A stretch of DNA of 23,392 bases, from the IMG/VR virus record IMGVR_UViG_3300036851_000410, positions 1 through 23,392 of that record, one strand, 5' to 3'. This stretch comes from a virus. Made by a program: the position numbers and the translations under genes. Positions 1-23,270 of this stretch are shown piece by piece (positions within the stretch are counted from its first letter, which is position 1; each line of letters starts with the position of its first letter). The notes beneath the pieces were generated by a model. The model was not told the DNA's origin. It searched no databases and saw nothing but the letters and a program-made list of their open reading frames with translations.

Positions 1-300
1 CTTGAGTTGCGCGGAGCCCGGCCTGGAGCGCTGGTCGGCATTGACGGTGTCGTAGTCGGTATGGGGGAACGAACGGTTGATCGGCAGTGAGTCGAGCGGC
101 GGCACCTGGAACACAAACGGACGCCCGAGCACCGTCGGGTCGGTCAGACCTTGTCGTCGCTCCAACCGCACGATCAGTCCGCGCCCTTCGGCATCGGTGT
201 GTGCAACGGTCGGTTCGAGCACCGGCACAGCCGGAGAGACAGGCAGCGGCGGCAGCCCTCGGTCGTCGTCGCCATTGACGTGTGGTACTGGCTGCGGCAC
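1..300 (-). CDS. XkdP-like baseplate/LysM-region protein, N-terminal part
   Basis: The gene runs off the left edge, so only the first 100 residues are visible. It starts with GTG at 300-298, which shares one base with the tape measure stop TAG (TAGTG), a typical coupled phage junction. The first 30 or so residues are proline-rich. They are followed by a segment with FVFQVPPLDSLPIN and then RPGSAQLK. A VPP motif followed about 25-30 residues later by PG-x-x-x-LK is what I know from the N-terminal domain of XkdP/gp53-like proteins, which follow the tape measure in contractile-tail phages of Gram-positive hosts. They often carry a LysM domain and help build the baseplate hub. The position directly after the tape measure supports this. 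The LysM part would lie outside the window, so the family assignment is an inference. Confidence 0.72.
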   Translation of the reverse strand, partial: MPQPVPHVNGDDDRGLPPLPVSPAVPVLEPTVAHTDAEGRGLIVRLERRQGLTDPTVLGRPFVFQVPPLDSLPINRSFPHTDYDTVNADQRSRPGSAQLK

Positions 301-3300
301 TACCGGATCGTCTCCTCGTCCCCAACGAACATCGTCAGCCCGAGTTCGTCCGCGAGCAGGTCGAACTCGTGATGAACGATCTTCCGAATGTCGCCGTCTC
401 GGTGGTTCTCGATCTTGTCGATGTTCACCTGCAAGACGATGGGTCGGCCGTCGCGCGTGCGCCTGTGTGTCGGCGTGATCTGCACTCGCTCCTCGGTGTC
501 CCCGACACCGATCAGCATGGGTTTACGCGCGACGAAGTCGGCACCCTGCTTGTACCAGTCCGCTGCGGTGGGGGTGCCCATCCCGGTCATCCCGCCGAGC
601 ATCTGATTGAGCCTTGCGGTCGCGCCAGTCGCCATCAGGAGCCCCGCCTGGTCTGCGAGCACGCCCGGCACGCCTCGCAGACCGCTCGGGCCGGGATAAA
701 GCTGGCTGAGGGTGATCTGTCCGATCCCGCCCGGCATCCCCGCTACGCCGCCGCGCGCGCCTAGACCTCCTGCTGCGAGGTGGATGTGGTCTCGGTGCCC
801 CGCCCAGGTCTTAGCTCCCCAAAAGCTCGGGGCGACGGCCGCGCCGTTCTTGATCGACAGGTTCGGGTTGTGGATGCCCTCCAGTAGCGAGCGGCCGATG
901 TTCGCGCCGACCCAGCGCGCGGCTGCGCTCATTACCGTGCTCGAACCGGCGAGATCGACCGCCATCCCGGAATAGTGGTAGGAGCTTGGGCGACCCTGCG
1001 GTCGCGCACCGGAGGAGATGTACAGGCCGGGGAACCGGCCGGTCACTTCGGACGCTATGGCGCTGATGCCGGGCTGGAGCCCAAACGCCTGGCCGCGCCC
1101 GCCACGTGCGAACGACCCGTGCGCTCGCCCCTCGTTGGCGACCAGCCCGCCGAGTGTCGTGCGTCCGCCGAGCAGGTAGTTGACCTTGCGCTCGGTGTGT
1201 CGGTTGACAACGAGTTCGCCCTTGGCACCGAGTTGGCCGTTGCCGAGCGCGACGCTGTCGCCCATGCCGTAGCCGGGTGCCCAGATTCGTCCGCCGGAAG
1301 CGCGACCGCGCCCACCTTCCAGCGGGTCAGGCCCGCGCACCAACCCCGAAGCAGGGCCGGGTGCAGTCGGAGAAGTCGGCGTGACGCCTGTGCGTTCCAT
1401 CCCAGCAACCAAGCGTCGAGCCTGCGCGGCAGTGAAACCCATCGCCTGCAAACTGCCGACCGCCTTGACCTGGATCGCCGTGAACGCCGCTACGACCGCC
1501 TGCCGCGCGCGCTCAGCAGGGTTAGAGATGGCAACCCGGATCGCGTTCCACTCCTTCTGGCTGCCGGTGAAGATGCCTCGATTGGTCACGCGCACCTGCT
1601 CGCCCATGGTCTTGAACGCCGCCTCCACGTCTTGGCGGATCATCCGCGTCGCGCCCTTGAAGCCAGGCCGTCCTTCCTTCTCCATCTGCTGCGCCCACGA
1701 CAGCACCGCACGACCGAGCACTCGCCGCCCGGCTGGACCGAGTTCACTCATCTGCCGAGCGATCTCACCGCGCGTGCGACCGAACGCTTCTTGCGGGCCG
1801 AACCTAGCCGCATAAATGTCGAACGCCTGGCCGATCTGCCGAACGCGCTGCGTGCCGAGCGCGCGGTCGCGCTGGTTCTTCTCGCGCACGAGCGTGCCGA
1901 GCAGGATGCGCCGCACTCTGATCTCCTCGCGGATGCCCACCATCAGTGCGCGCCCTTCGGGTGTACGCGGGCCGCCACCGGGGAAGCCGATGCCTTGCAG
2001 GTAGCGCAGACTCCCTTGCACCTGCCCGAGCGTCCGTGGCTGCTGGCCGCCGAAGCGTTCGAGCCCGCCAGCAATCTGCTGCTGCCAACGCTGGAGACGC
2101 TGCTCTCTGATCTCGCCGAACGTCGGCGGGTTGTAGATGCCGAACGTCAGGCCGCTGAGGAACTGTCGAGAGCGTTGCCCCCAGCCGCCCTCGGCGGTCG
2201 CGCCACCGTAGATGCCCATAGCTGCGGCGACCGGGATGGCGACTCGGCCGAACGCTGCGAGCCCGGCTCCGGCGCGACCAAAGCGTCCGGCCGCACCACC
2301 GCGCATGCCGCCGCCCATGAGTACACCTCCCGCCGCAACTCCGGTTGCACCCGCCTGGGCTCCGGCGGCTGCCCGCGCTCCGGTGACAACCGCCCACCAC
2401 GACGCGGCGAGTGTGCGCACCTTGTTGATGAACAGTCCGATGGTGGCGACCGAGAGCGCAGTCGAAAGCACATGGCTCAATCCCGGAATAGCGGTGATGA
2501 GATCGTTGATGAGTTGCAGAATCCGCGCGAGCAACGAAAGCATCACGTTGATCGGCCCGGTGACGCTTGTGAGGAACGTCAACGTGCGCACGAACTCGTT
2601 GAGCAGGTCGGCTGTGACCGGGCCAAATACGCGCACAAACATGTTGAACATCGCTTCGAGGTTGTCCACCATGTTCGACAAAGCGGTAGCGATCCTCGGA
2701 AGCTGCTCGGAGGTGCCCATCCGAAACAGCGCGCGCACGAGATTGTCAAACAGCGTGACGATGGCCTCGACGGCGTCGTGCATCTGGAGGAACTGCCGGG
2801 TCAGCCGAAGCTGACCGGCCACGCTGTTGCTGTACTTCGCCCATGAGCGCGTCGCACGCTCGGCGTCCCGCCAGAGCATGTCTCCGAGCGGACGCGCCGC
2901 GCGGCCTAGCCCTCTAAACCAGTTCCAAATGTTCTCCAGCAGATGGCCGAACTGCGTCATCGAGCGACGCGTGCGTTCGAGGAACGTGGCGAAGCGGCCC
3001 GAATCGCGTCCGAACTGCGCCCAGTCGCGGAACCACACACCGAAGCGCTCGATCAACGTGCCGATCCACTCGGTGAACGGGCGCGCAGCCATGGTGAGAT
3101 GGCGCAGACCATCCACGACGTTGACGAGCGCTCCGGCGAAACGGTCGAACATCTGGACGCCCTGGCGACCGATGCCCTCAAAATCCTGGAGGAACCCGAC
3201 CGTCGTGAAACGGTTGGCTGCGGACGAGGCTGCTGCACCGATGTGTCGGCCCATCGTCCCGACCAGCCGTTGTACGGTTGGCACCGCCCGCTGAAGCCTG

Positions 3301-3908
3301 CGCACTGAGTATTCGAGCCCAGGGAACAAGCCCTGCTGGGCCGAGCGGCGCAGGTCACGCACGACAGGCTGATACTGCTTGAGCGTGGTCAGGAAGCTTC
3401 GTGCCTCCGGCGTCAGCGCCTTCAGCGCGTTCTTGTTCCCGCCCATCGCCTTGCCGAGGTCGTTGAACGCTAACTTCACCGTCCCGAGCGCAAGCCCGAC
3501 ACCCGCCAAAGTCGCCGGGAGGGCAGCGAAAGCGCCAGATAGATCAACCAGCCGGGGGAGTAAGGCGATGATGCCTCCGGCGAGCGCCCCGATTGCCTGA
3601 GCCAAGACTCCGATGGCGAGTCCGATAGCCGGAATGGCGAGCACGCGCATCATGTTCCGCAAGCCGCCGAGCGCAGCCCCGGTTGTGATGATCGCGTTGC
3701 GGAGCCGCTGCCAACGAGTGACGTGCTGATCCATGTCGCGGGTCAACCGTCGCGTACGACTGCCAACCCGATCGGCTTCACCGCCGTAACTACGCAACGC
3801 ACGCTCAGCCGCCGAGATGTTGCGAGCCTGCTGGGGCGTGCCGACCTGATCGGTCGTCATCGCCAACCGCGCGATGGCACGGTCGGTCTGCTGCGCTTGA
3901 CGCTCCAT
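300..3908 (-). CDS. Tape measure protein with M15-type peptidase domain
   Basis: This 1202-aa ORF is the longest gene here and sets tail length in tailed phages. The N-terminal 70 residues are charged and helical. Residues 88-145 are strongly hydrophobic, and a second hydrophobic and Gly/Ala-rich stretch spans about 470-580. Residues about 925-1047 look like an M15 zinc peptidase (D,D- or L,D-endopeptidase fold), with H978-x6-D985 (HYSGMAVDL) and a downstream H1041-I-H1043 as metal ligands. This domain would cut cell-wall peptides during DNA entry. The last 150 residues are a separate C-terminal region. The first ATG at 3908 has no Shine-Dalgarno. In-frame codons just upstream encode a tape-measure-like N-terminus (FRIIDRASGPLRR) but offer no ATG, GTG or TTG. 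The real start is probably the TTG at 3972 in another frame (see separate entry). If so the protein would be about 1223 aa. Confidence 0.93.
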   Translation of the reverse strand: MERQAQQTDRAIARLAMTTDQVGTPQQARNISAAERALRSYGGEADRVGSRTRRLTRDMDQHVTRWQRLRNAIITTGAALGGLRNMMRVLAIPAIGLAIGVLAQAIGALAGGIIALLPRLVDLSGAFAALPATLAGVGLALGTVKLAFNDLGKAMGGNKNALKALTPEARSFLTTLKQYQPVVRDLRRSAQQGLFPGLEYSVRRLQRAVPTVQRLVGTMGRHIGAAASSAANRFTTVGFLQDFEGIGRQGVQMFDRFAGALVNVVDGLRHLTMAARPFTEWIGTLIERFGVWFRDWAQFGRDSGRFATFLERTRRSMTQFGHLLENIWNWFRGLGRAARPLGDMLWRDAERATRSWAKYSNSVAGQLRLTRQFLQMHDAVEAIVTLFDNLVRALFRMGTSEQLPRIATALSNMVDNLEAMFNMFVRVFGPVTADLLNEFVRTLTFLTSVTGPINVMLSLLARILQLINDLITAIPGLSHVLSTALSVATIGLFINKVRTLAASWWAVVTGARAAAGAQAGATGVAAGGVLMGGGMRGGAAGRFGRAGAGLAAFGRVAIPVAAAMGIYGGATAEGGWGQRSRQFLSGLTFGIYNPPTFGEIREQRLQRWQQQIAGGLERFGGQQPRTLGQVQGSLRYLQGIGFPGGGPRTPEGRALMVGIREEIRVRRILLGTLVREKNQRDRALGTQRVRQIGQAFDIYAARFGPQEAFGRTRGEIARQMSELGPAGRRVLGRAVLSWAQQMEKEGRPGFKGATRMIRQDVEAAFKTMGEQVRVTNRGIFTGSQKEWNAIRVAISNPAERARQAVVAAFTAIQVKAVGSLQAMGFTAAQARRLVAGMERTGVTPTSPTAPGPASGLVRGPDPLEGGRGRASGGRIWAPGYGMGDSVALGNGQLGAKGELVVNRHTERKVNYLLGGRTTLGGLVANEGRAHGSFARGGRGQAFGLQPGISAIASEVTGRFPGLYISSGARPQGRPSSYHYSGMAVDLAGSSTVMSAAARWVGANIGRSLLEGIHNPNLSIKNGAAVAPSFWGAKTWAGHRDHIHLAAGGLGARGGVAGMPGGIGQITLSQLYPGPSGLRGVPGVLADQAGLLMATGATARLNQMLGGMTGMGTPTAADWYKQGADFVARKPMLIGVGDTEERVQITPTHRRTRDGRPIVLQVNIDKIENHRDGDIRKIVHHEFDLLADELGLTMFVGDEETIR

Positions 3909-3987: not shown

Positions 3988-4010
3988 CCCTGCGCTTCCG
4001 TGTGAACCAC

Positions 4011-4244
4011 TTAGACCGTCATCCTTCGTGCGGCTTGTGCGCTTGCTTCATCGTCGGCGAGCACAGCGAAACCCAAGATCACCGCTCGCAGACGAAGTGG
4101 ATACGGGGGCGGCTTTGGCTTACCGCCCCCGAAAGGCACGTACTCAGCGTCGAGCTTGTTGTGCAGGCGGTACGGATCGTGCCCGCCGTACTTCCACGCG
4201 AGGTAGAGGAGGCGGGCATCTCCACCTACCCGCGCAAGTTTCCC
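4011..4244 (-). CDS. Tail assembly chaperone, frameshifted C-terminal part (gpT-like)
   Basis: This reading frame has no start codon of its own and is entered by a -1 frameshift from the upstream chaperone gene. After the slip at GGGAAAC it adds 75 residues before TAA at 4013-4011, giving a fusion of about 291 aa (216 + 75). The added part includes DARLLYLAWKYGGHDPYRLH and a Pro-rich segment, then a helical end (AVILGFAVLADDEASAQAARR). It fits the second domain of phage tail assembly chaperones, the part that contacts the tape measure protein during tail assembly. It lies between the short chaperone and the tape measure, where gpT-type extensions normally are. The coordinates given start at the slippery site; the full fusion runs 4885 to 4011. 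Confidence 0.85.
   Translation of the reverse strand, partial: GKLARVGGDARLLYLAWKYGGHDPYRLHNKLDAEYVPFGGGKPKPPPYPLRLRAVILGFAVLADDEASAQAARRMTV
4202..4244 (-). promoter_or_regulatory. -1 programmed ribosomal frameshift signal
   Basis: The heptamer GGGAAAC (4244-4238) is in the X-XXY-YYZ register of the chaperone frame, with zero-frame codons GGA AAC. This is the classic class of phage tail chaperone slippery site. Seven bases further on a stem-loop can form: GGTAG (4230-4226) pairs with CTACC (4206-4202), and GGAG (4223-4220) pairs with CTCC (4211-4208), around an 8-base loop. The zero-frame stop TAG (4228-4226) lies in the stem. The spacing suits a stimulatory element. The pairing was found by eye and not folded computationally. 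Confidence 0.85.
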
Positions 4245-4885
4245 GCCGCCCTCACCATCGTGACCTCGGGCGTGGCCCGAACCACGTCGTCCTCGTCCGC
4301 GCCGGAGAACAGCATGACCTCACCGGCAACCTGGTCGAGGAGGATCGGCTTGTTGCGGAAGCGCGCCTTGAGCAACTCGACCTTGTAGAACAGCGGGTCG
4401 GCTGCGGGCTGGCTGAACTTCGCCTTGACGGCCTCGTCGAGATCGGGCTCGACGGTGGCCGCTGCGACTACACGCTGGTTGTAGACGGTCACGTCGAAGT
4501 CGATCTCGTCTCGACCGCGACCGCGCTGCCGCCGCACCTGCCGGTTGCCGCTCTCCAATCGCGCCTGGGCGCGAATCTGATTGAACGTCTCGGCATCGAG
4601 GGTCGTGATGACCCAGTCGATGATCTTCGGCTGCTCGTCCGTGCCGACGTTCAACTTCAGCAACCGCCGGGGAGCCTGCTGCTCCTCCTCGGTCTCGTCG
4701 CTGAGCAGCCAGTCGAGGGCGTCCAACTGCTCCTCGGGCGACAGCACCTTCGCGCCCGCCTGCCCTGCCTTGCCTTCCGCACCGGCCTGCCGGACGGCGC
4801 GCTCGGCGTCGGATACTTCCGGCCGCTCGTCCGACTGGGCTACGTGAACGTCAGGATGATCCGGCTTCTTCGTGCTTGCTTCCAT
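4226..4885 (-). CDS. Tail assembly chaperone, short form (gpG/XkdN-like)
   Basis: This gene encodes 219 aa. Translation starts at ATG 4885 behind GGAAGGAG. The first 50 residues are polar and probably disordered. Residues about 50-210 are acidic and helical, with PEEQLDALDWLLSDE, a repeated hydrophobic pattern and an end that reads VAGEVMLFSGADEDDV. That arrangement (acidic helical protein just upstream of the tape measure, with a frameshifted extension) is typical of XkdN/gpG chaperones, which bind the tape measure and recruit tube subunits before being lost from the mature tail. The last codons overlap a GGGAAAC slippery site, so a minority of ribosomes should make the longer fusion ending at 4011. 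A region rich in Arg (RRQRGRGRDE) in the middle is unusual but does not alter the call. Confidence 0.87.
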   Translation of the reverse strand: MEASTKKPDHPDVHVAQSDERPEVSDAERAVRQAGAEGKAGQAGAKVLSPEEQLDALDWLLSDETEEEQQAPRRLLKLNVGTDEQPKIIDWVITTLDAETFNQIRAQARLESGNRQVRRQRGRGRDEIDFDVTVYNQRVVAAATVEPDLDEAVKAKFSQPAADPLFYKVELLKARFRNKPILLDQVAGEVMLFSGADEDDVVRATPEVTMVRAAGNLRG

Positions 4886-4921
4886 CGCTCTCTCCTTCCG
4901 AGAGTGAGTGGGTCGCCACGG

Positions 4922-5173
4922 TCAGTCATCACGACCCCAGAGAGAGCCCAACTCAATCGGCTCTCGGTCGTCAGTGGACTTCCCGTTGGGCGGGGACTTG
5001 TCGCCAGCCGGGCGACGCGGTCGTTCGTCGAACCCTTCCTCTGCCTCGGGCACCTCGCAGTCCTTCTCGATCTCTGCCGCCTTGCGCAGAAGCTCGTCGC
5101 GGCCGTGTGACGCCTTCGAGGCGATGTGCGCTCGAAGGTGAAGCAAGGCTCGCTCATAGTCGGCTGCTGGCAC
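4922..5173 (-). CDS. Small hypothetical protein between tube and chaperone
   Basis: This encodes 83 aa and starts with GTG at 5173. The choice of start rests on TAGGAG eight bases upstream, where the TAG is the stop codon of the tube gene, so the ribosome binding site overlaps that stop. The N-terminal half (DYERALLHLRAHIASKASHGRDELLRKAAEIEK) is a likely helical hairpin, here given in parts: residues about 5-20 and 22-37. The C-terminal half is rich in Pro, Asp, Glu and Arg and is likely disordered. I do not recognise a family. The location suggests a role in tail assembly, but no function can be claimed. Confidence 0.7.
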   Translation of the reverse strand: MPAADYERALLHLRAHIASKASHGRDELLRKAAEIEKDCEVPEAEEGFDERPRRPAGDKSPPNGKSTDDREPIELGSLWGRDD

Positions 5174-5183
5174 CCGAGGTCTC

Positions 5184-5735
5184 CTACGGCACCGGGCCTT
5201 CGTAGTAGCTCGGAACCGACACGCCGCCCGGCCCGACCTCACGCCGGAAGGTCTCCAGCGGTCGCTCGGTCTCCCAGGTGATCGGGAACTCCCGTTCCAC
5301 CTGGTCGTCACCGATGCTGAAGCCCATCGGCAGACGCCAGATCAGCACGCCGTCCAACTGCCACCGCTCGCGCCCGAGCGCGTACGGGTCGTCGTACTCC
5401 AGGACGAGCGAGAACGGCCGCATCTGCGCCTTCCCGGCGTCGCGTGCCGCGCGTCGTTCGTCGAGGGACTGGGAGAGGAAGTTGTAGACCTCCGTCTCCC
5501 ACGAAGCGTCACGCTTCTGCACGCGCATGACGCCTTCACGGGTCTGTCGTCCCGGCTTGTGCCCGAGCCGCTCCGTGCCGACCATCGGTACATCGACGCG
5601 GTTGATCTCGACCGCGCCACTGCACTCGATCACGTCGGCCAGGAGCTTCCCGTCGCGCCAGGCCGAGCCGTACATCCCGCTGAACACGAGCAGCCCCTCC
5701 TGAGCTGCTGCGGCTGCGGGTGAAACAGCAGGCAT
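5184..5735 (-). CDS. Tail tube protein (XkdM-like)
   Basis: This encodes 183 aa and starts at ATG 5735 behind GGAAAGGAG. The N-terminal third has GSAWRDGKLLADVIECSGAV, then a run with VPMVGTERLGHKPGRQTREG. Both match the pattern of the XkdM/contractile tube family (a short beta-barrel subunit that forms hexameric rings): the GsaW-dG segment, and a Gly near a K-x-G in the middle. The central part carries helix and strand segments including PFSLVLEYDDPYALG, and the C-terminus has a WETERPLETFRRE segment. Its place between the sheath and the chaperone and tape measure, with only an HNH gene inserted after the sheath, fits the usual sheath-tube-chaperone-tape measure order. Some XkdM proteins are about 145 aa, so this one is somewhat longer. 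Confidence 0.83.
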   Translation of the reverse strand: MPAVSPAAAAAQEGLLVFSGMYGSAWRDGKLLADVIECSGAVEINRVDVPMVGTERLGHKPGRQTREGVMRVQKRDASWETEVYNFLSQSLDERRAARDAGKAQMRPFSLVLEYDDPYALGRERWQLDGVLIWRLPMGFSIGDDQVEREFPITWETERPLETFRREVGPGGVSVPSYYEGPVP

Positions 5736-5750: not shown

Positions 5751-6392
5751 TTATGCGGCCTGTGCCGCCAGGGCGATTGCTCGACCCTTTGCTCGATTGC
5801 ACGGTGGGTGCGCTACCTGGGAGTTCGCGTACGAGTGCTCACCCCCAAGTGCCAGCGGAATCACATGATCCACGTCGAAACAATCACGCTCCGCTAGCTC
5901 ACCACAGATTCCGCAGACACCTTCGTCGCGCTCGAACACAACCTGCGGATCGACGTGTTCGACGAATGCGTCACGGATACGAGCGCGACGCGCAGACGCA
6001 GCCTTGCGTCCATTCGTGCGTACGCGCTCCGGGTTCTTTGCCCGCCAAGCCGCGTATCGCGCGTCTCGCCTACCCGGATTCGCCTGGGCGGCCAGCACCG
6101 CCGTGTTCTTGTCGCAACTTCGACAATAGACCGAGACACCGAGTGTGCGGTGAGGATAGAACCCGTCGTCGCGTGACTTGACCTCCCCACACTTCGGGCA
6201 CCGTTTTAGTCCGAGCCCTCGAAGCTCCTGTCGCTCCCGATGACGTGACGTACCGGAACCGCGCAAGACGGAGCTAATACACGACTGACCTACCCCAAAC
6301 CGCAACCCAAGCTCAGCCTGAGAAATACCGCCACGAGCATAGTCCTCACGAATCGTAAGAACCTGGGCTCCGGTGAGCTTGGGTGCGGGCAT
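5751..6392 (-). CDS. HNH endonuclease with N-terminal helix-turn-helix
   Basis: This encodes 213 aa. I take ATG 6392, four bases after the sheath stop; an alternative ATG at 6434 would overlap the sheath by 38 bases. No good Shine-Dalgarno precedes 6392, so translation may depend on coupling. Residues 8-45 form a helix-turn-helix (LRFGVGQSCISSVLRG). Two Cys pairs follow (C65/C68 and C90/C93), then an Arg/Ala-rich linker. The HNH domain has C160/C163, D175-H176, N190 and C198-N199, with GGEHSYAN in between. HNH enzymes of this form nick or cut DNA with a metal ion and are often free-standing mobile genes. It has a close relative at 9546-10121. It is inserted between sheath and tube genes and is unlikely to be structural. 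Confidence 0.92.
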   Translation of the reverse strand: MPAPKLTGAQVLTIREDYARGGISQAELGLRFGVGQSCISSVLRGSGTSRHRERQELRGLGLKRCPKCGEVKSRDDGFYPHRTLGVSVYCRSCDKNTAVLAAQANPGRRDARYAAWRAKNPERVRTNGRKAASARRARIRDAFVEHVDPQVVFERDEGVCGICGELAERDCFDVDHVIPLALGGEHSYANSQVAHPPCNRAKGRAIALAAQAA

Positions 6393-6396
6393 GTGG

Positions 6397-7878
6397 TTAG
6401 CGCACGACAATCGTCGATAGCACCTGCTCCGCACTTCGACCGAACGCGAGGAAGTAGTCCAGCGCGATGAACTCGTCGTCGTCGCTCGGGGGTGGATCGG
6501 CTGACACGGTCACCGTCCAGCCGGGCTGGATCGCGGCCCCCTCCTCTCGTAGTCGCATCCGCGAGGACATTTCCGCGATGACGGCGGAGCGCGACTTGGA
6601 GTTCACCGGAAGCTGCCCGATCACGTTCGACTGCACCCACTCGGTGATCTCCATTTGGAGGTCGTGCATCGTCCGCACGAATTTCGGATTGCGGAAGATG
6701 CGGTACGGACGGTTCTTGTCGGTCTGGAGCGTGAAGGTCGTCACACCCTTCTCGATGTGCACCGGAGCATCCGGGTCGGAGTCTCGACTGAGCACGACCG
6801 TGCCGTTGTCGAAGGCCAACTCGATGCCCGCTTCGGTCGCGCCGTTCAGCAGAGTCACTCCCTGTACTCGCGCGCCCGTGAGGGAGCGTGCCTCTCCGAG
6901 CGCAGCAAGGATGCCCGCCAGCCGTGGGACGAACTGCGAAGTGCTGAGCACGATGGCAACGCCGGACGCGTCGAGCATCTCGTCGTCGCGCACCGACCCG
7001 ACTCCGACGTTGATGAAGTCGGGATCGTTGAAGGTCAACGACCGCGCGTTCGCGGTGGCGACCAACTCGTTCAGCGCACCGCCGACAACGACGAAGAACC
7101 TCTTGCCTTTGTTGTTCAGGTTCACCGCCCATGTCTTGAGCGACGCAAGAATCGACGCATCAGTGAGATCGAACGGAGCGAAGTAGCCGAACCGCTCGGG
7201 CTCCAACGCGGTCGTCATCTCCGTCCAGTCCAGGGCAACGAGCGTCGCCCCGTTCGCGCCGCCCGCAAGCGGCGTCGAGACAACCGGCGTCAGCGGGACG
7301 GTGTCGATCAGAACCGTCAGCCTGACCCAGTCCGACACGGCGTTCACTGCATCACGCAGCACTGCCAGCGGAGTCGCCACCGCCGGGTCGTACACGATCC
7401 GCTCGACCTCGGTGAGACCATCCAGCACGATGAAATCCCGCTTGGTCGCATCGACCGGGTCGGTCTGGATCGTCACGCGCAGGTCGTTGCCGCGCGTGCC
7501 TTCGTAGACCGCATCGACCTTGAGCGCGGAGGCCGGGGTCGTGTTGCTCAGGGTCACCGTCGCCTTGGCAGCGGCAGCAGCCCCCATGCGGTACGCGAGA
7601 ACCTGCCCGGCCCCGCGTCGGCCGCGCACGCCCTCGCCACGAAACGCCTGGCGCACGGCCCGGTACCCAGGCTGGTCGAGGCTGTTGCCGAAGATGGCGG
7701 TGAAGTCCGCGAACGAGTTGAGCCGCACCGCCTGTTCGAGCGGCCCCCAGTCATGCGTGAACGGCACCGCGACAACCGAGCCGACCGACGGCGGAACCGT
7801 GACCGCAGGCAAGGCTCGAAAGTTGAAGTACGCCCCCGGCCGCTTCGGGAGACTCCCAGCGCTGAAAGACCCAGACAT
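6397..7878 (-). CDS. Contractile tail sheath protein
   Basis: This encodes 493 aa and starts at ATG 7878 with GGAGAGGAGG upstream. The sheath surrounds the tail tube and contracts to drive it into the host. Features of the family are visible: an N-terminal PGAYFNFRA strand, a central region with alternating strands and helices (for example GNDLRVTIQTDP and DFINVGVGSVRDDEM), an LAGILAALGEARSLTGARVQG segment, and a C-terminal part with TDKNRPYRIFRNPKFVRTMHDL and an IGQLPVNSKSRSA helix-strand followed by a last beta-strand (ALDYFLAF). The length is near the usual 350-500 aa of simple sheath proteins. An HNH gene follows immediately, and the tube comes next. Its presence marks the phage as a myovirus type. 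Confidence 0.93.
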   Translation of the reverse strand: MSGSFSAGSLPKRPGAYFNFRALPAVTVPPSVGSVVAVPFTHDWGPLEQAVRLNSFADFTAIFGNSLDQPGYRAVRQAFRGEGVRGRRGAGQVLAYRMGAAAAAKATVTLSNTTPASALKVDAVYEGTRGNDLRVTIQTDPVDATKRDFIVLDGLTEVERIVYDPAVATPLAVLRDAVNAVSDWVRLTVLIDTVPLTPVVSTPLAGGANGATLVALDWTEMTTALEPERFGYFAPFDLTDASILASLKTWAVNLNNKGKRFFVVVGGALNELVATANARSLTFNDPDFINVGVGSVRDDEMLDASGVAIVLSTSQFVPRLAGILAALGEARSLTGARVQGVTLLNGATEAGIELAFDNGTVVLSRDSDPDAPVHIEKGVTTFTLQTDKNRPYRIFRNPKFVRTMHDLQMEITEWVQSNVIGQLPVNSKSRSAVIAEMSSRMRLREEGAAIQPGWTVTVSADPPPSDDDEFIALDYFLAFGRSAEQVLSTIVVR

Positions 7879-9545: not shown

Positions 9546-10121
9546 CTAAGCGACCGCCGTAGTAAGACACGCCGCTCCCTTCTGCTGGTTGCACAACGAG
9601 TGACTAACCTGCGTGTTGGCGTAAGAATGCTCGCCGCCCTTCGAGAGCGGCACGATGTGATCCAGGTGCCAGTCATCGCGGTCGGCAGGCTTCCCGCAGA
9701 TGCCGCAGATGCCCTCGTCTCGTTCCCAGACGATCTGCGGATCGACCGCTTCGACGCAGGCATCGGACAGCCTGGCTCGTCGAGTCGCCTGAGTTCGGCG
9801 TGAATGAGCCCGAGCTTTGTCGGGATTCTCTCTACGCCATCGGCGTTCACGATCTCGACTTACCTCGCGCGAGCGGTTTTGTAGTTCGCGCTTCCGTGAC
9901 TCCGCGACTCTCTGTGGATTCTTGGCCTTCCACTCGCGTCGAACCTGCCGCTCGTGCTCGGGCCTTTCCTGCATCGCCCGCTCGTGACGCTGGCTGCGCT
10001 CAGCCTTCTTGCAGTCCGCACACACGCGCATGCGCCAAGCGTTCGTCCGATAGAAAGAATCGAGGGGCTTCTCTACGCCACACCGCACGCAGACGCGGAT
10101 CTCGACTTCCTGGACGCTCAT
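9546..10121 (-). CDS. HNH endonuclease with N-terminal zinc-ribbon
   Basis: This encodes 191 aa. The start ATG 10121 overlaps the previous stop as ATGA. Two CxxC pairs (C11/C14 and C34/C37) form a likely zinc ribbon, followed by a long Arg/Glu-rich helical linker (residues 40-115). The HNH nuclease part holds C139/C142, D154-H155, N169 and C177-N178, with GGEHSYAN between. The last 70 or so residues are about 65 percent identical by hand count (45 of 69) to the HNH protein at 5751-6392, but this one lacks that protein's helix-turn-helix. It probably is a mobile homing-type gene placed between the head-closure and gp10-like genes. Role in packaging is an alternative, as some HNH proteins assist terminase, but two copies in the tail region argue against that. 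Confidence 0.92.
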   Translation of the reverse strand: MSVQEVEIRVCVRCGVEKPLDSFYRTNAWRMRVCADCKKAERSQRHERAMQERPEHERQVRREWKAKNPQRVAESRKRELQNRSREVSRDRERRWRRENPDKARAHSRRTQATRRARLSDACVEAVDPQIVWERDEGICGICGKPADRDDWHLDHIVPLSKGGEHSYANTQVSHSLCNQQKGAACLTTAVA

Positions 10122-11839: not shown

Positions 11840-12940
11840 CTACGCCACCAGCCCTCGGTACGCGCCGCGTGGATCGACGGCGGCCGTGCCGAAGATGTGG
11901 CGCACCTTGAAGTCGATGGAGTCGAACTCGAACGTGTACGGATCGACACCCGGCCCCATGGCGTTGCGCACGTACGGCTCCTTGAGACCAACGAACGGCG
12001 TCTCGTTGCCGTTCAGGAAGCCGATGGCGAACGCGGGCACGTCATCCGGGTTGGCGAACACGTACCAGTCGTTGGAGTCGGTGAAGTACGGCTCCTTGAC
12101 GACCGCGTCGTTCGGGACGATGCCTTCGAGGGGGTTCAGCGTCCCCTTGTCGAAGATGTTGGTGCCCGCACCCGCAGCCATGGCGATCTGCAACTGCGCG
12201 CCGGTCAACTGCGAGTTGATGATGCGACGAGCGACCAACTGCTGACGCGTGTTCTTGACGATCACGGCACCCGGACGGACGGTGATCGGGAAGCCCGAGT
12301 CATCCGTCAGCGAGTCCATGAAGGAGACGGCGTCCGCCAGGCTGTCCTCGGACAGCGCGTTCGTCGTCTGATTGCCACGTGCACCCCCGAAGAAGGGGTT
12401 GCCGTCTGGCGCGGTCGGGTTGGTCTCGATCAGGGCGACGAGCGTCGTGGCGACGAAGATGGCCGCGTCGCGGCCCATGTCGCCGGGGATGCGGTTAAGC
12501 AGTTCCCCGATGTCGTCGTTGATGATCGCCTCCATCGTGATCTTGTAGACGAACCCGTACTTGTCCACCATCAGACCGGCGGACGGGCGCTCCGTCCGGC
12601 GGCCTTCGGCGTATTCGCCGTTCTCCCCGACATACGCCATGCCGCGCACGGCGTTGAGCCCGCGCAGGCGGCGCTCACGGAAGTCGGGCATGTTCTCGAT
12701 CCGCGCGTAGCGGCGGTACTGCGGTGCGACCTGCGTGTAGCCGCCCCAAAGGGCGGTGCTCACGGGGCCGTAGAGGAAGTTCGGGAAGTCGAACCGTGTG
12801 GCGACCTCCTGGAGTTCGAGGTCGCCCGACTCGGCGGCCTCCTCCAGAAGCGCCTGGTTCTTCTCGACCCAATCCTCCCAGGCATCGAACAGACGGATCG
12901 GCCCGCCCCAATGCCCGTATGCACTTCTGCGATTTGGCAT
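11840..12940 (-). CDS. Major capsid protein, gpT-like HK97 fold
   Basis: This encodes 366 aa from ATG 12940 behind GGAAAGGAG. It forms the phage shell. The middle part reads YKITMEAIINDDIGELLNRI then GRDAAIFVATTLVALIETNP and DGNPFFG; these three segments in this order mark the Mu gpT-like branch of HK97-fold capsid proteins. A gene for a protease-scaffold fusion and one for a decoration protein stand just upstream, as in related phages. C-terminal strands with FAIGFLNGNETPFVG and YTFEFDSIDFKVRHIFG fit the A-domain and the end of the P-domain. Expected to be the most abundant virion protein, in line with its strong ribosome binding site. Confidence 0.93.
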   Translation of the reverse strand: MPNRRSAYGHWGGPIRLFDAWEDWVEKNQALLEEAAESGDLELQEVATRFDFPNFLYGPVSTALWGGYTQVAPQYRRYARIENMPDFRERRLRGLNAVRGMAYVGENGEYAEGRRTERPSAGLMVDKYGFVYKITMEAIINDDIGELLNRIPGDMGRDAAIFVATTLVALIETNPTAPDGNPFFGGARGNQTTNALSEDSLADAVSFMDSLTDDSGFPITVRPGAVIVKNTRQQLVARRIINSQLTGAQLQIAMAAGAGTNIFDKGTLNPLEGIVPNDAVVKEPYFTDSNDWYVFANPDDVPAFAIGFLNGNETPFVGLKEPYVRNAMGPGVDPYTFEFDSIDFKVRHIFGTAAVDPRGAYRGLVA

Positions 12941-12961: not shown

Positions 12962-13360
12962 CTAGGGGATTGAGTCCTTCATGTCGAGATCGACGCGCAT
13001 GAAGCCCGTCTCGGTACCACGCTGGCCCTGAATCTCGACGACGCGGCCGAACTTTAGGTTGCCCGCCGCCGTCTCTGTCAGGACGTTCGTCGCGGCGATG
13101 ATGTAGAGCGCATCGCCCTTCGCTGCGCCAGTCAGGAACGGCACCTTGACGATGCCCTTGCAGACGATGGCGAAGGCTTCCCCGACAGGGATGTTGACCT
13201 GCGGGTCAGGTGACCCACCGATCCCGGCCGACGAGAGCGGCTGCTTCTGCTTCTGCGCCGTGCCGACCACACCGTCCTCGGTGCAAGGCTTCCCGTGCAG
13301 GACAGCCTTCGTCGCTGCCGTGACGTAGTACCGGGTGCCGGGGCGGTTGTAGTGACCCAT
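12962..13360 (-). CDS. Capsid decoration protein (DUF2190-like)
   Basis: This encodes 132 aa from ATG 13360 with GAAGGAGGA upstream. It has the features of the DUF2190 or SHP-like group that trims the capsid surface and stabilises it: an N-terminal segment GTRYYVTAATKAVLHGKP, then VNIPVGEAFAIVCKGIVKVP, AKGDALYIIAATNVLT and KFGRVVEIQGQRG before a final FMRVDLDMKD strand. All are short strands joined by Gly turns, as expected of a small beta-barrel. It lies between the protease-scaffold and the major capsid protein, the normal location. Only 18 bases separate it from the protease gene. Confidence 0.85.
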   Translation of the reverse strand: MGHYNRPGTRYYVTAATKAVLHGKPCTEDGVVGTAQKQKQPLSSAGIGGSPDPQVNIPVGEAFAIVCKGIVKVPFLTGAAKGDALYIIAATNVLTETAAGNLKFGRVVEIQGQRGTETGFMRVDLDMKDSIP

Positions 13361-15943: not shown

Positions 15944-16330
15944 CTAGTCGATCTCGATGGTCAGATGGTCGTCATTGGGGACGGTCTCTACGTCCCCAGC
16001 GACGGTCTGAATCTCAAAGGTGGCCCGGTAGACACCCGCCGTGGCGGTCTCACCGGCCGTCCAGCGGTACTCGACGACGCCTTTGCCGTACTTCCTGGTC
16101 GGGCTCGCAGGATCGTAGTTTTCAAGGTCGGTCGGGGGGATGACCGTCCCCTCCAACACCACTACCGGCCGGTCGGTGATGCTCGGTAGGCCCGAGATGC
16201 TGCCGAGCATGTTGAAGCGCACCGTGGATTGGTTCGGGCCGGGGTCACCAAGAGGGATCGGCTTGCCGCTCACACGTCTCAGGATGACTCGGAGCGGCTT
16301 CGTGTCACCTCGGTGGATGCCATAGCGCAC
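15944..16330 (-). CDS. BppU-like Ig-fold baseplate/receptor protein
   Basis: This encodes 128 aa from GTG 16330; no strong Shine-Dalgarno precedes it, and it starts 15 bases after the stop of the repeat protein. The pattern IHRGDTKPLRVILR, then VRFNMLG in the first third, KGVVEYRWTAGETATAGVYRATFE in the last third and VPNDDHLTIEID at the end is that of the N-terminal Ig-like domain of baseplate upper proteins (BppU_N, DUF2479 group). These anchor receptor-binding proteins to the baseplate. Here only that single domain is present, so it may act as an adaptor for the preceding fibre protein. The ending VPND-x-x-L is also found at the end of the repeat protein. Confidence 0.66.
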   Translation of the reverse strand: MRYGIHRGDTKPLRVILRRVSGKPIPLGDPGPNQSTVRFNMLGSISGLPSITDRPVVVLEGTVIPPTDLENYDPASPTRKYGKGVVEYRWTAGETATAGVYRATFEIQTVAGDVETVPNDDHLTIEID

Positions 16331-16345: not shown

Positions 16346-19300
16346 CTAAACGGGGACGGCCTCGGTGTCCTCCGGCACCTGGAGGTAGCTGTCGTTCGGC
16401 ACGACTTCCAGAGTGAGCCCGCCGGACAGATCGTAGTGAACGAGATAGGAGAAGATGACCGACTTGCCTCGCAGAGAAGCAACTACGTACGACATGGCGA
16501 GCGAGTGGCCTACCGGCGCGAGCACCCCAACAACGGCGTACGACATGGCGAGCGAGCGTCCGGCGAGCGCGAACACAAGGTAGGGCTGGGCAAGAGAGCG
16601 ACCGGTCTCGACGTGTTGTGTCCACGACTGCGCGAGCGAGCGGCCCGCAAGCTGGGCGAGTAGATAGGGCTGTGCCAGACTCGCACCACTGAACGTGCTG
16701 AGCAAGAACGGCATGCTGAGGGAGCGGCCGATGAACGCGTGCACCGACCACGGCTGGTTCAGCGAGCGACCGGCGAACGCATGCACAGCGTATGGCAGCG
16801 TCCGAGACGCGCCGTTTGCAACCGTCACCGTGTACGGCTGGCCGAGCGTGCGGCCGACAACCACGCTCACGTCGGATGGGAGGAATACGCTCCTGCCGAC
16901 GAACGCGGCGACGACGAAGTTGAACGCAAGCAAGCGACCGGCGAGTATGTAGATCGAGTAGGGCGTAGCGTTGCTCTTGCCAACGACGGTCAGCAACGCG
17001 TAAGGCTGAACGAGACTGACTCCCCGGATGCTGGCAACAACGTAGCTCTGGCTGAGCGACTTGCCGACCGGAGCCGCGACTACATACAGCATGACAAGTG
17101 ACCGACCGGCGAAGGCGATCAGCGTGTACGGCTGCGCGAGTGAGCGAGCGACCAGCGCCGCCACCGTGTACGGCTGGCCGAGGGACGCCCCCGCGAACAT
17201 GTGCACGGCGTACGACAGCGCGCTGCTACGACCTACGACCCCGGCGAGCCCATACGGCGTGACCAGGCTCTTGCCAAGGATGACGGCGACCGTGTACGGC
17301 TGCGTGAGCGAGCGACCGGCTTCGGCACGCAGCGTGAACGGTTGAGTGAGCGAACGCCCGGCTTCGACCAGCACGGCGTAGGGCAAGCTCGCGCTGCGTC
17401 CAACGAACATCGCCACCTGATACGGGAGCGCGAGACCGCTGCCTGCGAAGGCGTGGATCGTCCACGGCTGGGCCAGCGACTGCCCGGCGAATACAACGAG
17501 TGTGTAGGACAGCGTGTTGGACTTGCCGACGAACGCGTTGACTGCATACGGCAAACTCGTACTCCTTCCGACTGTCCCCGCGAGACCGTACGGCTGCACG
17601 AGCGACGCACCTGCGAGGGCGAACACCGTCCAGGGCTGGGCGAGCACGCGGCCGATCTCGACGTGTAGCGTCCACGGTTGCGCGAGCGAGCGACCGGCGA
17701 GCACGTTGACCGTATACGGCTGGGCCAGCGTGCGCCCGACGACCGCGATCACCGTGAAAGGCAGCGCCAGCGACGCACCCGCGAGAGCAATCACCGTGTA
17801 CGGCTGCGCAAGACTTCTGCCTGCGAGCACCGCCACGGTGTACGGCTGGGCCAGCGTGCGACCGGCCTCGACAAAGGCCGTCCAGGGTTGCGCGAGTGAG
17901 CGCCCGACGGCCGCGTGAACGGTGAAGGGCAGCGCGAGTGAGCGACCTACGAAGGAGATGGTCGTGAATGGCTGAGCGAGACTGGCCCCGACGAGAACGG
18001 CGACGGTGTAGGGCTGCGCCAAAGACCGGCCCGCCAGCGCGTGGACAACGTAGGGCTGAGCTAGTGCTCGACCAATCTCTACGGAGGTCGTCCACGCCTG
18101 CACGAGGGATCGACCAACCTCTGCGTACACGACATACGGCTGCGTAAGAGAGCGACCGATAGCCGCGAATACCGTCCACGGCTGGGCCAGCGACTTGCCG
18201 ACCTCGGCGCTGACGGTGTAGGGCTGCGCGAGAGATCGACCGGCGACTGCAACCACGGTGTACGGCTGCGCGAGACTTCCACCCGCAACCACAAACACGG
18301 TGAACGGTTGCGCTACAGAGCGGCCGAGTTCGGCGCTGGTTGTCCACGGCTGGGCCAGGCTCTTGCCGACGAACGCCACCACGGTGTACGGCAAGGCAAG
18401 GCTGCGACCAACGAAGGTGACCACCGTGAACGGCTGAGCGAGCGAGCTACCGACCAACGCGGCGACCGTGTACGGTTGGGACAGCGACCGCCCGGCCTCG
18501 ACGTGCACCGTGAAGGGCTGGGCGAGCAAGCGGCCGACGACCGCATAGATGGTATACGGTAAGACGCTCGTCGCACCAGTCGCCTGGTAAACGGCGAATG
18601 GGAACGTATTGCTCTTACCGGTGAGCACGTACAGTGTGAAGGGCTGAGCCAGGCTCTTGCCGACCGGTGCGTTCACGGTATACGGCGATGCCAGGCTCTT
18701 GCCGACGACAGCAATGACCGTGTACGGCATCGCAAGAGAAGCCCCAACCGCCGTGACACCAGCCCCAGCCGTGACGCTGGGTGTGACGGCGTAGCTGTCC
18801 AGGGGCAGCCCGTCCGCGATGAGACGGAAATCGAAAACATCGCCCGCCAACGCGCCGAAGGAGGAGTTGAAGCGAAGCGAGAACTCGTACTCGGTTACGG
18901 TGCTCGGTCCGAGATTGGTGTCGAACTCGGTCGCGGCGTCCAGAACCACGCCCGCAATGAACGTCCCGGCGCTGATCTGCTGCGTGGTCGCCTCCTGGTT
19001 GACGACATTCGGCGAGTCCACGACCTGGACGGCCAGAACAGCGTCCGGCTCGGTCCAGGCTCCCGCGTTCCGCCGAAACTGGATGCCGAACATGCGCGAG
19101 GGCGGGTCCGCCGCTCCCGCCGCCTCCGCGACTGCTATGCGCAAACGGAAGCGCGTGTCGAGCGCTATGTTCGGCGGCGGCGTGTCGAGCCCCGCCATCC
19201 ACGTCGCGCCTGTCTCACTGCCGTTGTCGTTGCGAAAGCGGTAGTGCTGCTGCTCGAACCTCGGCGGTTCAAGCGTGGCACCGACGATCTGCGAGGACTG

Positions 19301-19348
19301 GACTAGCCCAGGAGGATCGTGCGACGAAACGGGATGAACGATCTTCAT
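16346..19348 (-). CDS. Giant 14-residue-repeat fibre-like protein
   Basis: This encodes 1000 aa from ATG 19348, overlapping the previous stop as ATGA. Residues 1-200 form a head domain with strands such as RFRLRIAVAE, FGIQFRRNAGAW and STVTEYEFSLRF, a type common in phage and metagenomic surface proteins. Residues 201-973 are 55 tandem units of 14 residues (one has 17), with consensus xG[RK]SLAQP[YFW]TVxAx. Residues 974-1000 are a short tail with EVVPNDSYLQVPED. Gly is at position 2 in 54 units, an aromatic residue is at position 9 in 54, and Pro is at position 8 in 45. I infer a long beta-repeat shaft (beta-solenoid or triple beta-spiral type), probably a tail or head fibre. I do not know a named family. 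An alternative is a surface or adhesion protein carried as cargo. Confidence 0.85.
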   Translation of the reverse strand: MKIVHPVSSHDPPGLVQSSQIVGATLEPPRFEQQHYRFRNDNGSETGATWMAGLDTPPPNIALDTRFRLRIAVAEAAGAADPPSRMFGIQFRRNAGAWTEPDAVLAVQVVDSPNVVNQEATTQQISAGTFIAGVVLDAATEFDTNLGPSTVTEYEFSLRFNSSFGALAGDVFDFRLIADGLPLDSYAVTPSVTAGAGVTAVGASLAMPYTVIAVVGKSLASPYTVNAPVGKSLAQPFTLYVLTGKSNTFPFAVYQATGATSVLPYTIYAVVGRLLAQPFTVHVEAGRSLSQPYTVAALVGSSLAQPFTVVTFVGRSLALPYTVVAFVGKSLAQPWTTSAELGRSVAQPFTVFVVAGGSLAQPYTVVAVAGRSLAQPYTVSAEVGKSLAQPWTVFAAIGRSLTQPYVVYAEVGRSLVQAWTTSVEIGRALAQPYVVHALAGRSLAQPYTVAVLVGASLAQPFTTISFVGRSLALPFTVHAAVGRSLAQPWTAFVEAGRTLAQPYTVAVLAGRSLAQPYTVIALAGASLALPFTVIAVVGRTLAQPYTVNVLAGRSLAQPWTLHVEIGRVLAQPWTVFALAGASLVQPYGLAGTVGRSTSLPYAVNAFVGKSNTLSYTLVVFAGQSLAQPWTIHAFAGSGLALPYQVAMFVGRSASLPYAVLVEAGRSLTQPFTLRAEAGRSLTQPYTVAVILGKSLVTPYGLAGVVGRSSALSYAVHMFAGASLGQPYTVAALVARSLAQPYTLIAFAGRSLVMLYVVAAPVGKSLSQSYVVASIRGVSLVQPYALLTVVGKSNATPYSIYILAGRLLAFNFVVAAFVGRSVFLPSDVSVVVGRTLGQPYTVTVANGASRTLPYAVHAFAGRSLNQPWSVHAFIGRSLSMPFLLSTFSGASLAQPYLLAQLAGRSLAQSWTQHVETGRSLAQPYLVFALAGRSLAMSYAVVGVLAPVGHSLAMSYVVASLRGKSVIFSYLVHYDLSGGLTLEVVPNDSYLQVPEDTEAVPV
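16430..18748 (-). repeat. 55 tandem 42-bp units encoding 14-residue repeats
   Basis: Unit n starts at 18748 - 42(n-1) for units 1 to 52; unit 53 has 51 bases (three extra residues), followed by units 54 and 55. The protein pattern is much more uniform than the DNA, so selection on the protein is likely. Larger patterns exist: units 7-10 resemble units 18-21 (an 11-unit step), and units 28-29 with PYGLAG resemble 36-37 (an 8-unit step), which suggests growth by block duplication. Confidence 0.93.
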
Positions 19349-20058
19349 GCGGGCACGTAGGGACGCATGACGAGATCGGGAATCGGCAGCCGGGCTTCCC
19401 GAACAGCCAGATAGACGAACGCTCGGTCATCGGTCGTGCCCGAGGTGAAGCCGACGGGGCGCGAGCCGGTACCGCCCGTGGTCTCCCGGCAGACTGCCGC
19501 CACCTGAGCGCCCGTGTCGAAGTTTTGCAGCCCCGTGGAGCTTCCCTGGGTCGCGCCGGGGAGGGGGGCGGGCGGTGACGTTAGCCCCGAGTAGCCCCCG
19601 CAGTACCGCATCGACGCCGGAGACCCTCCGGGCAGGAAGTCGGAAATGTTTACCTCGGCCAAGGTGCCGTCCCCGCCCTGCGTGATCGCGGCCGCGTAGT
19701 CCGTGTCGTTGTTGGCGGTCACTGTTATGCACACCGCCCACACCTCGTCGGCGGTGTTGCCCCGGTTGACGACGACCGTCCGCGCGCCTGTCGGAATCCC
19801 CGAACCCAGGAAGAACACGCTGCAACTGCCCGGTTCCCCGGCCGAGTCGTTCACGAACCCTCCTGTGACGGAGGGTACGGTCACACCGCCGTAAGTCACG
19901 GAAGTGACTATGTTGGCAGTCGAGACTAGGTTGACAGCGAAGATCAGCACGCCCCGCGGCGTGCCGACCGGCGTGTGCGTCCAGGAGAACGACGCCTGGT
20001 TGATCGAGCCCGTCGCGCCCGTGTGCGACTCCGAGGCCGCGTCGTGGGCGACCGCCAC
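19345..20058 (-). CDS. Beta-rich virion surface protein, 237 aa
   Basis: Starts with GTG at 20058 and ends in an ATGA overlap with the repeat protein. It is beta-rich with many Gly, Ser and Thr. The pattern SFSWTHTPVGTPRGVLIFAV, then VTYGGVTVPSV, a SVFFLGSGIPTGARTVVV strand pair and TANNDTDYAAA is one I have seen in many phage and metagenome-derived proteins, where a small beta-sandwich is used in tail or minor virion proteins. The precise role is unknown. The tight coupling with the repeat protein suggests that the two are made together and may form one fibre. Confidence 0.72.
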   Translation of the reverse strand: MAVAHDAASESHTGATGSINQASFSWTHTPVGTPRGVLIFAVNLVSTANIVTSVTYGGVTVPSVTGGFVNDSAGEPGSCSVFFLGSGIPTGARTVVVNRGNTADEVWAVCITVTANNDTDYAAAITQGGDGTLAEVNISDFLPGGSPASMRYCGGYSGLTSPPAPLPGATQGSSTGLQNFDTGAQVAAVCRETTGGTGSRPVGFTSGTTDDRAFVYLAVREARLPIPDLVMRPYVPA

Positions 20059-22032: not shown

Positions 22033-22605
22033 TCAGTCCCCGTGCGCGTAGATCGTCTCGAGCTGCTCGTAGTCGTGCGCGTTCGGGTGATCCCAGGCTC
22101 CCCCGTAGACGCTCGACCTCATGCAGGTGCCGAACTTCTTTCGATTCTCGTACTGGTGGTCGAGCCCGAGCGAGTGGCCGAGCTCGTGACAGGTGGTGTG
22201 TTGGCGCGATCCGTAGTAGGAACCGTTGAGGTAGGTCTCGTTGAGGCGCACATCGAGGGAGACGAAGTGGCCGTCCCAGTCACGAAGCGGTGAGGTGGCG
22301 CCAAGCCATCCCGTCAACCCGTACTCACCCGAGTAGACGTGGACGCAGTTCATCCAGTCCTGGCAGGCGGGGACGACCTCCATGTGCAGAACACTCGACG
22401 CGCTCCAATCGGACGCGGCGGCGGTGATCTCCGTCGTGAACCGCCCCGCGGTGTTGTCGATTGCCGAGACGACAAACGGATTGGACGTTCTCGGCCAGTG
22501 GTAGCCATTCCACCAATGCGACGCCGAGGCTGGCGCGATCAACACGAGAGATGCCAAACAAACCATCATCGCCAGCGCGACGTACCTCGTCACTTGGCCT
22601 ACCAT
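22033..22605 (-). CDS. Secreted zinc metzincin (matrixin-like) protease
   Basis: This encodes 190 aa from ATG 22605, overlapping the upstream stop by seven bases; no clear Shine-Dalgarno. Residues 6-28 are a signal peptide with a hydrophobic core and A-S-A before the likely cut after residue 28. Residues 140-150 are HELGHSLGLDH, the full HExxHxxGxxH zinc site (H140, H144, H150, catalytic E141), and M162 in GTCMRSS fits the Met-turn. The early part (HWPRTSNPFVV and ASDWSASSVLHMEVV) resembles matrixin-like proteins common in actinobacteria. Four Cys residues in the mature part (81, 87, 139, 161) may form disulfides. It sits inside a virion operon, so it may be a secreted accessory factor or a cell-surface-clearing enzyme carried by the phage. 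Confidence 0.88.
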   Translation of the reverse strand: MVGQVTRYVALAMMVCLASLVLIAPASASHWWNGYHWPRTSNPFVVSAIDNTAGRFTTEITAAASDWSASSVLHMEVVPACQDWMNCVHVYSGEYGLTGWLGATSPLRDWDGHFVSLDVRLNETYLNGSYYGSRQHTTCHELGHSLGLDHQYENRKKFGTCMRSSVYGGAWDHPNAHDYEQLETIYAHGD

Positions 22606-23270
22606 CTCTGGCTGCTGCGGACAATGTGGCGCTTCGGCTGCGCAGGAACTAGGGACGGATCAAGATTGCCAGCGGAGAAATCGTCAAAGACGGTCGAGAG
22701 GTGGGTCGTGAGCATCCCGCAGTAGCCGCTTCTCCAGGTCTCGTCCGAGAGAGCGTTCCGCAGCACCCAAGCGCCTCCGGTGTACGCCCACATCTCGACC
22801 TGATTGTGGACGCGGCGCATGCCCAGCTTGTCGCCGTTGATCCACTCAGCCTTGGTTATCACGCTTTGGGCGATGATGCCCTCGCCCACGTAGCAGATGA
22901 TCTGCCACTCGTCGTTATCGACTCCGTCGCGGCGGATCATCCGACCCTCGTAGCAATCCACTAGGCCCGACCCCGGCACGTGGTTGGTGCCGCAGATGAC
23001 GAGGTTCGCCCGATACACGGACGCGTTGGGCAGACCGGAGACGGTGACGTACATGCCACAGTGGGGGCCGAAGGTCGCTCCGTTCCAGTACGACGCGCTT
23101 CCGATCCCGTTGACCCCGGAACCCGACACAGCGCCGTTCGAGACGAGATCGAGGCCGTTGCCACTCCCTCCCTGCGACAGCATCTCATCCGTCCAGCCCG
23201 TCATCGGGGCCGTCTCGTTCGCGCGGTTGAAGTTGTCGCGGAGCGTGACGCCCAAGAAGGGGTCGGGCAT
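22599..23270 (-). CDS. Concanavalin-like jelly-roll protein, 223 aa
   Basis: Starts at ATG 23270, directly after the upstream stop (TAGATG), with GGAGG six to eight bases upstream. The pattern RDNFNRANETAPMTGWTDEM, a VSNGAV turn, MYVTVSGLPNASVY, YEGRMIRRD, WQIICYVG and VEMWAYTGGAWVLR, ending with VFDDFSAGN, is the classic jelly-roll form of LamG-like phage proteins: DnFnRa near the start and DDF near the end. Proteins of this type are minor tail or fibre components that may bind glycans. Catalysis is not expected. Confidence 0.8.
   Translation of the reverse strand: MPDPFLGVTLRDNFNRANETAPMTGWTDEMLSQGGSGNGLDLVSNGAVSGSGVNGIGSASYWNGATFGPHCGMYVTVSGLPNASVYRANLVICGTNHVPGSGLVDCYEGRMIRRDGVDNDEWQIICYVGEGIIAQSVITKAEWINGDKLGMRRVHNQVEMWAYTGGAWVLRNALSDETWRSGYCGMLTTHLSTVFDDFSAGNLDPSLVPAQPKRHIVRSSQRW

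Follow-up and report, generated by a model that had tools for sequence, protein, structure and literature searches.

The window, that is, the whole stretch of DNA analysed here, is a 23.4-kb IMG/VR record, a fragment of a phage with a contractile tail, and carries the virion module, with all of its genes on the minus strand. The module comprises the genes of the major head and decoration proteins, of head-tail and neck proteins, of the sheath, of a phrog_365 tail protein, of an XkdN-like protein and of the tape measure, and the gene of a long repeat protein, which is the subject of this analysis, is located upstream of the head genes (Table 1). Between the virion genes, positions 9546-10121 (minus strand) encode an HNH/endonuclease-VII-like endonuclease of the homing type (phrog_1035, 1.5e-27); a second endonuclease-type ORF, similar-looking by inspection, lies between the tail genes (5751-6434, minus strand). 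Within the block of appendage genes, the minus-strand ORF 22033-22605 encodes a small protein whose N-terminus resembles a signal peptide and which contains the metzincin-type zinc-protease motif HELGHSLGLDHQ; its matches to Pfam M43 and M10 are weak and below the cut-off, and the gene possibly codes for a secreted protease.

Table 1. The repeat-protein gene, its parts and its neighbours, with positions in the window.
Feature	Positions	Strand	Remarks
Upstream gene, unknown family	19345..20058	minus	stop overlaps the ATG of the repeat gene (ATGA)
Repeat protein, 1000 aa	16346..19348	minus	single uninterrupted ORF, ATG start
N-terminal Ig-like beta-sandwich, aa ~30-195	18764..19261	minus	motif YRFRNDNGSETGATW; common to unrelated phages
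Array of 55 x 14-residue units	16430..18748	minus	53 in register + 3-residue insertion + 2
Insertion Leu-Ala-Pro (LAP), aa 943-945	16514..16522	minus	precedes the final two units
C-terminal tail, 27 residues	16349..16429	minus	follows the last unit
Adjoining gene, Ig-like, BppU_N-like candidate adaptor	15944..16330	minus	L010 and L124 have relatives in this position
Capsid decoration (cement) protein	12962..13360	minus	PF09956 8.5e-8; phrog_122
Major head protein	11840..12940	minus	phrog_133 1.4e-41
Contractile tail sheath	6397..7878	minus	phrog_279 3.4e-66
Tail tape measure protein	300..3908	minus	phrog_6435 7e-26

The repeat array occupies the C-terminal 77% of the protein. Fifty-three of its units stand in perfect register (residues 201-942) and the final two, which follow the insertion, take up residues 946-973. 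The unit has the consensus [VA]-G-[RK]-S-L-A-Q-P-[YFW]-T-V-x-[AV]-x: Gly is present at position 2 in 54 of the 55 units, an aromatic residue at position 9 also in 54 (34 Tyr, 11 Phe and 9 Trp), Ser at position 4 in 46, Pro at position 8 in 45, and Arg or Lys at position 3 in 41. Our recount of the units, of their span and of the Gly, aromatic and Pro positions is identical to that of the first-pass annotation. Asp and Glu are nearly confined to position 14 and Cys is absent, the net charge being about +33. The predicted strands are strongly amphipathic and bear hydrophobic residues on both faces, at positions 1, 5, 9, 11 and 13 on the one and at the outward positions 12 (64% hydrophobic) and 14 (75%) on the other. 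Identity at a lag of 14 residues amounts to 0.448, against a mean of 0.089 and a maximum of 0.136 in 1000 shuffled arrays; the only, and weak, excess similarity is found between units four or five apart.

At the DNA level, the synonymous sites of the units are saturated. Pairs of identical residues in different units share the codon in a fraction of 0.408, while 0.394 is expected from the codon usage of the array; positions 2, 4, 5, 8, 9 and 11 are nearly fixed across the units. Since the synonymous sites are randomised between units, programs that search for tandem repeats in DNA see only short two-copy runs, and Tandem Repeats Finder reported just three of them. Randomised codons together with fixed residues point to an old array rather than to a recent duplication of DNA, and a recent slipped-strand expansion was rejected on account of the saturated synonymous sites. 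The array is thus ancient and maintained by protein-level selection, which argues that each unit has a fixed structural role.

Comparison of the unit with Pfam, PHROGs, NCBIfam and the PDB sequences gave no convincing match, which is in line with the first-pass annotation, where no named family was known for such a unit. The PLipase_C_C family (PF05506) reached 35.6 bits for the whole protein, above its cut-off of 24.4, yet no single stretch passes it, so the score is a sum over repeats; likewise, Hera_RBD and other Pfam, PHROG 34376 and NCBIfam matches were either repeat sums without a passing stretch or sub-threshold. Scans of IMG/VR with the single protein, with the consensus and with degenerate DNA retrieved zero close relatives of the unit, and in the papers searched we did not find a 14-residue phage tail repeat described.

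The N-terminal domain has relatives in other phages. Its motif pattern, YR[FW]RND[ND]GxExxATW, occurs in 22 IMG/VR loci, and an alignment of the full domain from eight sequences contains 19 invariant columns, the identity to the window being 27-41%. Having both the conserved motif and the full-length alignment, the domain of the window is a member of this unnamed YRxRND[ND]G family. It is the best-predicted part of the full-length AlphaFold2 model, with many blocks at pLDDT 79-92, and the VIA list for that model was filled by it, being uninformative on the array. The structure matched was that of Thermus TTHA1873 (Foldseek 6e-4; Z 8.8, 3.0 Å, 122 residues), along with pilin domains; as modelled, the domain thus resembles Ig-like sandwiches of the TTHA1873 or pilin type; it has no family name.

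Homologous N-terminal domains were found in the loci L105, L107, L108, L110, L116, L117, L120 and L124, but what follows them differs from the window. In L108, L110 and L116 the domain precedes beta-repeats with a period of 23 residues (THEGASDISVSSELTVSGSVAHP), instead of 14; in L117 and L120 the repeats are of 18 residues (GSITxTGSLxKxTxKxLA), in L124 of 20, L107 has kelch repeats, and L105 is without such an array. The repeat units of all these relatives are unrelated to that of the window, and the head genes accompanying them are from other families. As for the gene order, the repeat genes of L110, L117 and L124 have head, portal or packaging genes beside them: that of L117 is flanked by the portal-type gene and the major head gene, that of L124 adjoins the major head protein gene, and that of L110 is located near portal and head-protease genes. 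The 23-residue arrays, which stand behind the N-terminal domain in L108, L110, L114, L115, L116 and L122, show an identity between units of up to 91%; an array of this kind is apparently younger.

A small Ig-like protein is encoded next to the repeat gene in several phages. In L110, the neighbour gene matches Pfam Gp77, the podophage fibre-tail adaptor, above the cut-off (5.8e-12); in L124 and L010 the neighbours are weakly BppU_N-like, at 0.053 and 0.1, both below the cut-off. The adjoining gene of the window aligns with the neighbours in L124 and L010 (33-35% identity, 23 invariant columns), has no match to Pfam BppU_N or Gp77 above the cut-off, and its family does not align to the Gp77 protein of L110. 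The recurring pair of a repeat protein and a small Ig-like protein looks as a fibre and its adaptor would, which suggests that both may be located on the particle.

The closest relatives of the phage itself were sought by its major head protein, which has 74% identity to that of L006, 61% to those of L008-L010, and 55% to that of L040, a contig of an actinobacterial metagenome-assembled genome. The 14-residue array is absent from these head-protein relatives, including the closest of them (L006, L010 and L040), and a search in 396 genomes from the phylum of L040, the sole bacterial relative, gave no match, the window's own record serving as the positive control. Upstream of their head genes, other proteins are encoded: in L008, L009 and L010 a Gly-rich repeat protein with a unit of ~20 residues (KTGGALTSASTGGPKLVGA), which in L010 is a frame of 971 aa (2309-5221, plus strand) with no database match; in L006, which has the closest major head protein, a collagen-like protein (GATGATGATGATGPAGA; 5912-6565, plus strand); and in L040 a large protein (772-2694, plus strand) that bears a pair of peptidoglycan-binding domains (PF01471, 2.6e-34). 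The differing repeat and collagen-like genes indicate that the appendage genes at this place vary among related phages. By eye, the ORFs 19345-20058 and 22599-23270 of the window could be taken for relatives of parts of the L010 repeat protein, but BLASTP failed to support it.

As to the fold of the array, AlphaFold2 predicts one strand per unit when nine units are modelled alone (pLDDT 53), while in the full-length model the units at ~265-600 are at pLDDT 60-73, and the values drop below 50 past residue ~660. Nearly all of these units follow the same pattern: a 6-7-residue strand Y9-V1', a turn G2-R3, a two-residue strand S4-L5 and a loop A6-Q7-P8. The regular beta structure expected in the first-pass annotation is therefore predicted, although at a confidence so low that the fold is unproven. 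Moreover, a solenoid can be the form into which models of low confidence drift by default. In comparisons with known structures, the nine-unit model was superimposed on the beta-helix of SufD (5awg) with Z 8.2 and 2.4 Å over 124 residues; the alignments with the CsgA fibril (rmsd 8.5 Å in spite of Z 11.4) and with the ryegrass ice-binding protein (3ult) were less convincing, and the best Foldseek matches of the repeat model were insignificant. Our best guess from these models is that the units stack as a flattened beta-solenoid in which each unit makes one coil of ~14 residues; a super-period of 28 or 42 residues was not detected in the array, which speaks against rungs of two or three units. 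At 0.48 nm per unit, the 55 units would form a solenoid of ~26 nm. The predicted coil, with ~14 residues and a long and a short strand, is like those of small-coil or flattened solenoids such as 3ult and the core of SufD, although there is no sequence relation to them and the confidence of the window model is low. An ice-binding function was rejected, as the array contains no TxT rows.

A shaft of ~70 nm was proposed for the same array in the first-pass annotation, on the supposition of a triple beta-spiral, in which three chains are wound together and each unit contributes two short strands, a Gly turn and ~1.3 nm. The consensus of this fold is a repeat of ~15 residues with hydrophobic residues at c, e, g, l and n and Gly or Pro at j, and the adenovirus fibre shaft is built of short beta repeats that share a single conserved Gly at the turn. 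The window array also has one turn Gly; the spacing of 7 from Y9 to G2' and the alternation of Y9, V11 and A13 are like those of c, e, g and j in the adenovirus consensus, the hydrophobic character of positions 12 and 14 suggests buried inter-chain faces, and the monomer prediction, being of low confidence, would leave room for such a trimer. However, the second half of the unit does not fit: G2 and L5 are separated by 3 residues instead of 2, position l falls on Ser4 and is hydrophobic in 7% of the units, and the period is 14, not 15. Furthermore, the adenovirus knob has no counterpart here, as neither a knob nor a trimerisation domain is present in the C-terminal tail of just 27 residues, the profile has no match among PDB chain sequences, and the models look like a monomeric, flattened solenoid. 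The triple beta-spiral and its length are thus unsupported, and we regard this fold as unlikely.

It is also rather unlikely, in our opinion, that the units form a non-solenoid beta assembly which arises exclusively within the virion or at the host, be it a beta-meander, a curli-like stacking or another multi-chain fibre without a solved relative. The strongly amphipathic strands, hydrophobic on either face, the low confidence of the monomer and the weak alignment to the CsgA fibril would be in line with such an assembly; against it, the units of the full-length model regularly show two strands each, a pattern that fits one coil per unit.

Considering all these data, we find it reasonably probable that the protein is a modular virion appendage, an adhesin or a fibre, with an Ig-like N-terminal domain and a rod of 55 short beta units. 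The arguments are as follows. The array has been preserved in its residues while the codons drifted, and its period and register recur in C-terminal arrays of Aeromonas tail proteins; the models show a strand in each unit. The repeat gene sits among the sheath, head, decoration and tape-measure genes; the homologues of its N-terminal domain in L110, L117 and L124 are encoded in virion modules, and several homologues have other beta-repeats behind them; and it adjoins an Ig-like gene, the corresponding position in L110 being occupied by a Gp77 adaptor. Counting against this reading, the closest head-protein relatives (L006, L010 and L040) are without the array, and the assignment of the adaptor in the window is under the Pfam threshold, its product not being alignable to the L110 protein. 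The gene at 22033-22605, with its likeness to a secreted zinc protease and its signal-peptide-like N-terminus, could hint that the repeat protein, too, is secreted or displayed on the cell surface and is not a part of the virion. Yet inspection revealed no signal peptide in the repeat protein, which is encoded within the virion module, and the relatives of its N-terminal domain adjoin portal, head and fibre-adaptor genes, which makes a secreted product highly improbable.

In the virion appendage that we propose, strand Y9-V1' of each unit would turn at G2-R3 into the short strand S4-L5, and the loop would end at P8. Stacking of such units should produce a rod that has aromatic residues aligned as a ladder at one corner and Arg and Lys aligned likewise at the turn edge; the protein would probably be anchored to the particle via the small Ig-like partner from the adjoining gene. 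The array stops 27 residues short of the C-terminus, so there is no receptor-binding head after it, and for want of such a knob contacts along the rod are proposed. The basic edge and the aromatic ladder could contact anionic or sugar-rich surface polymers, and many weak contacts of this kind, e.g., of the basic edge with anionic polymers, would probably keep the phage near the host surface.

More tentatively, and with only a modest chance of being right, we suppose a class of phage beta-fibres in which one family of small Ig-like domains is combined with interchangeable arrays whose short beta unit varies freely in length (14, 18, 20 or 23 residues), forming thin rods of an unsolved fold that contact host polymers multivalently by the rod itself and have no knob at the tip. 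In general, it is the repeat-built shaft that determines how long and how stiff a phage fibre is, and few such architectures have been solved. The occurrence of one N-terminal domain family with several repeat periods in unrelated phages makes the relation between repeat length and rod geometry testable. In addition, with its near-invariant turn and core and its free outward positions 12 and 14, the array could be used as a scaffold for designed binding rods.

Among known phages, the arrays most similar to that of the window were found in Aeromonas. A three-unit LxxP[YF] pattern retrieved one clearly related array, that of Aeromonas phage L045, the rest being low-complexity or unrelated ORFs, and tblastn revealed that tail proteins of Aeromonas Casjensviridae contain arrays of ~20 units (for example, GVIADLTTPYGLQP), namely those of BUCT552 (QVW27843.1), AVP3 (WZX10242.1) and 13AC503A (WGH28364.1). 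Like the array of the window, they have a period of 14 (the spacing has this value in 20 of 21, 16 of 17 and 17 of 18 cases), are located in the C-terminal part of the protein, and keep the register [SDE]4-L5-x-x-P8-Y9-x-[LV]11 (LxxPYxL). In profile-profile alignments to the window, which ran from 4-39 to 4-39 for BUCT552 and AVP3 and from 7-39 to 7-39 for 13AC503A, the scores were 17.2, 22.2 and 16.0, while 48 column-permuted controls did not exceed 15.0; a direct profile search with the window unit does not reach these arrays. They differ from the window in that they are carried by a tail protein of ~1200 residues and not by an Ig-like domain, and in that their units have Gly elsewhere and an acidic residue at position 4. 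The AVP3 protein contains Phage-tail_3 (PF13550, 8.8e-7), a domain absent from the repeat protein of the window. The array may represent a new fibre architecture, as put forward in the first-pass annotation, but unnamed arrays of equal period and register already exist in cultured Aeromonas phages. The likeness may reflect either common descent or convergence.

Two more proteins of known phages are to be compared here. The Vibrio phage K566 (L036, 2260-3489, plus strand) encodes an annotated tail sheath stabilizer with loose C-terminal beta repeats of ~14 residues, retrieved by tblastn with a weak score (3e-3). In the "capsid protein" of Desulfofustis phage LS06-2018-MD01 (WBK39766.1), whose gene adjoins head and portal genes, a laminin-G-like domain is followed by units (SYDLRLNV) that are mostly 14 residues apart; unlike the window array, this one has irregular spacings (14, 18, 30 and 32), no Pro and no significant profile similarity. 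Judging by sequence, the 14-residue arrays of the window and of the Aeromonas phages, both unnamed, are the closest to each other in period and register, and the protein of the window, far from being isolated, can be placed in a loose group, as yet without a name, of phage appendage proteins built of beta-repeats.
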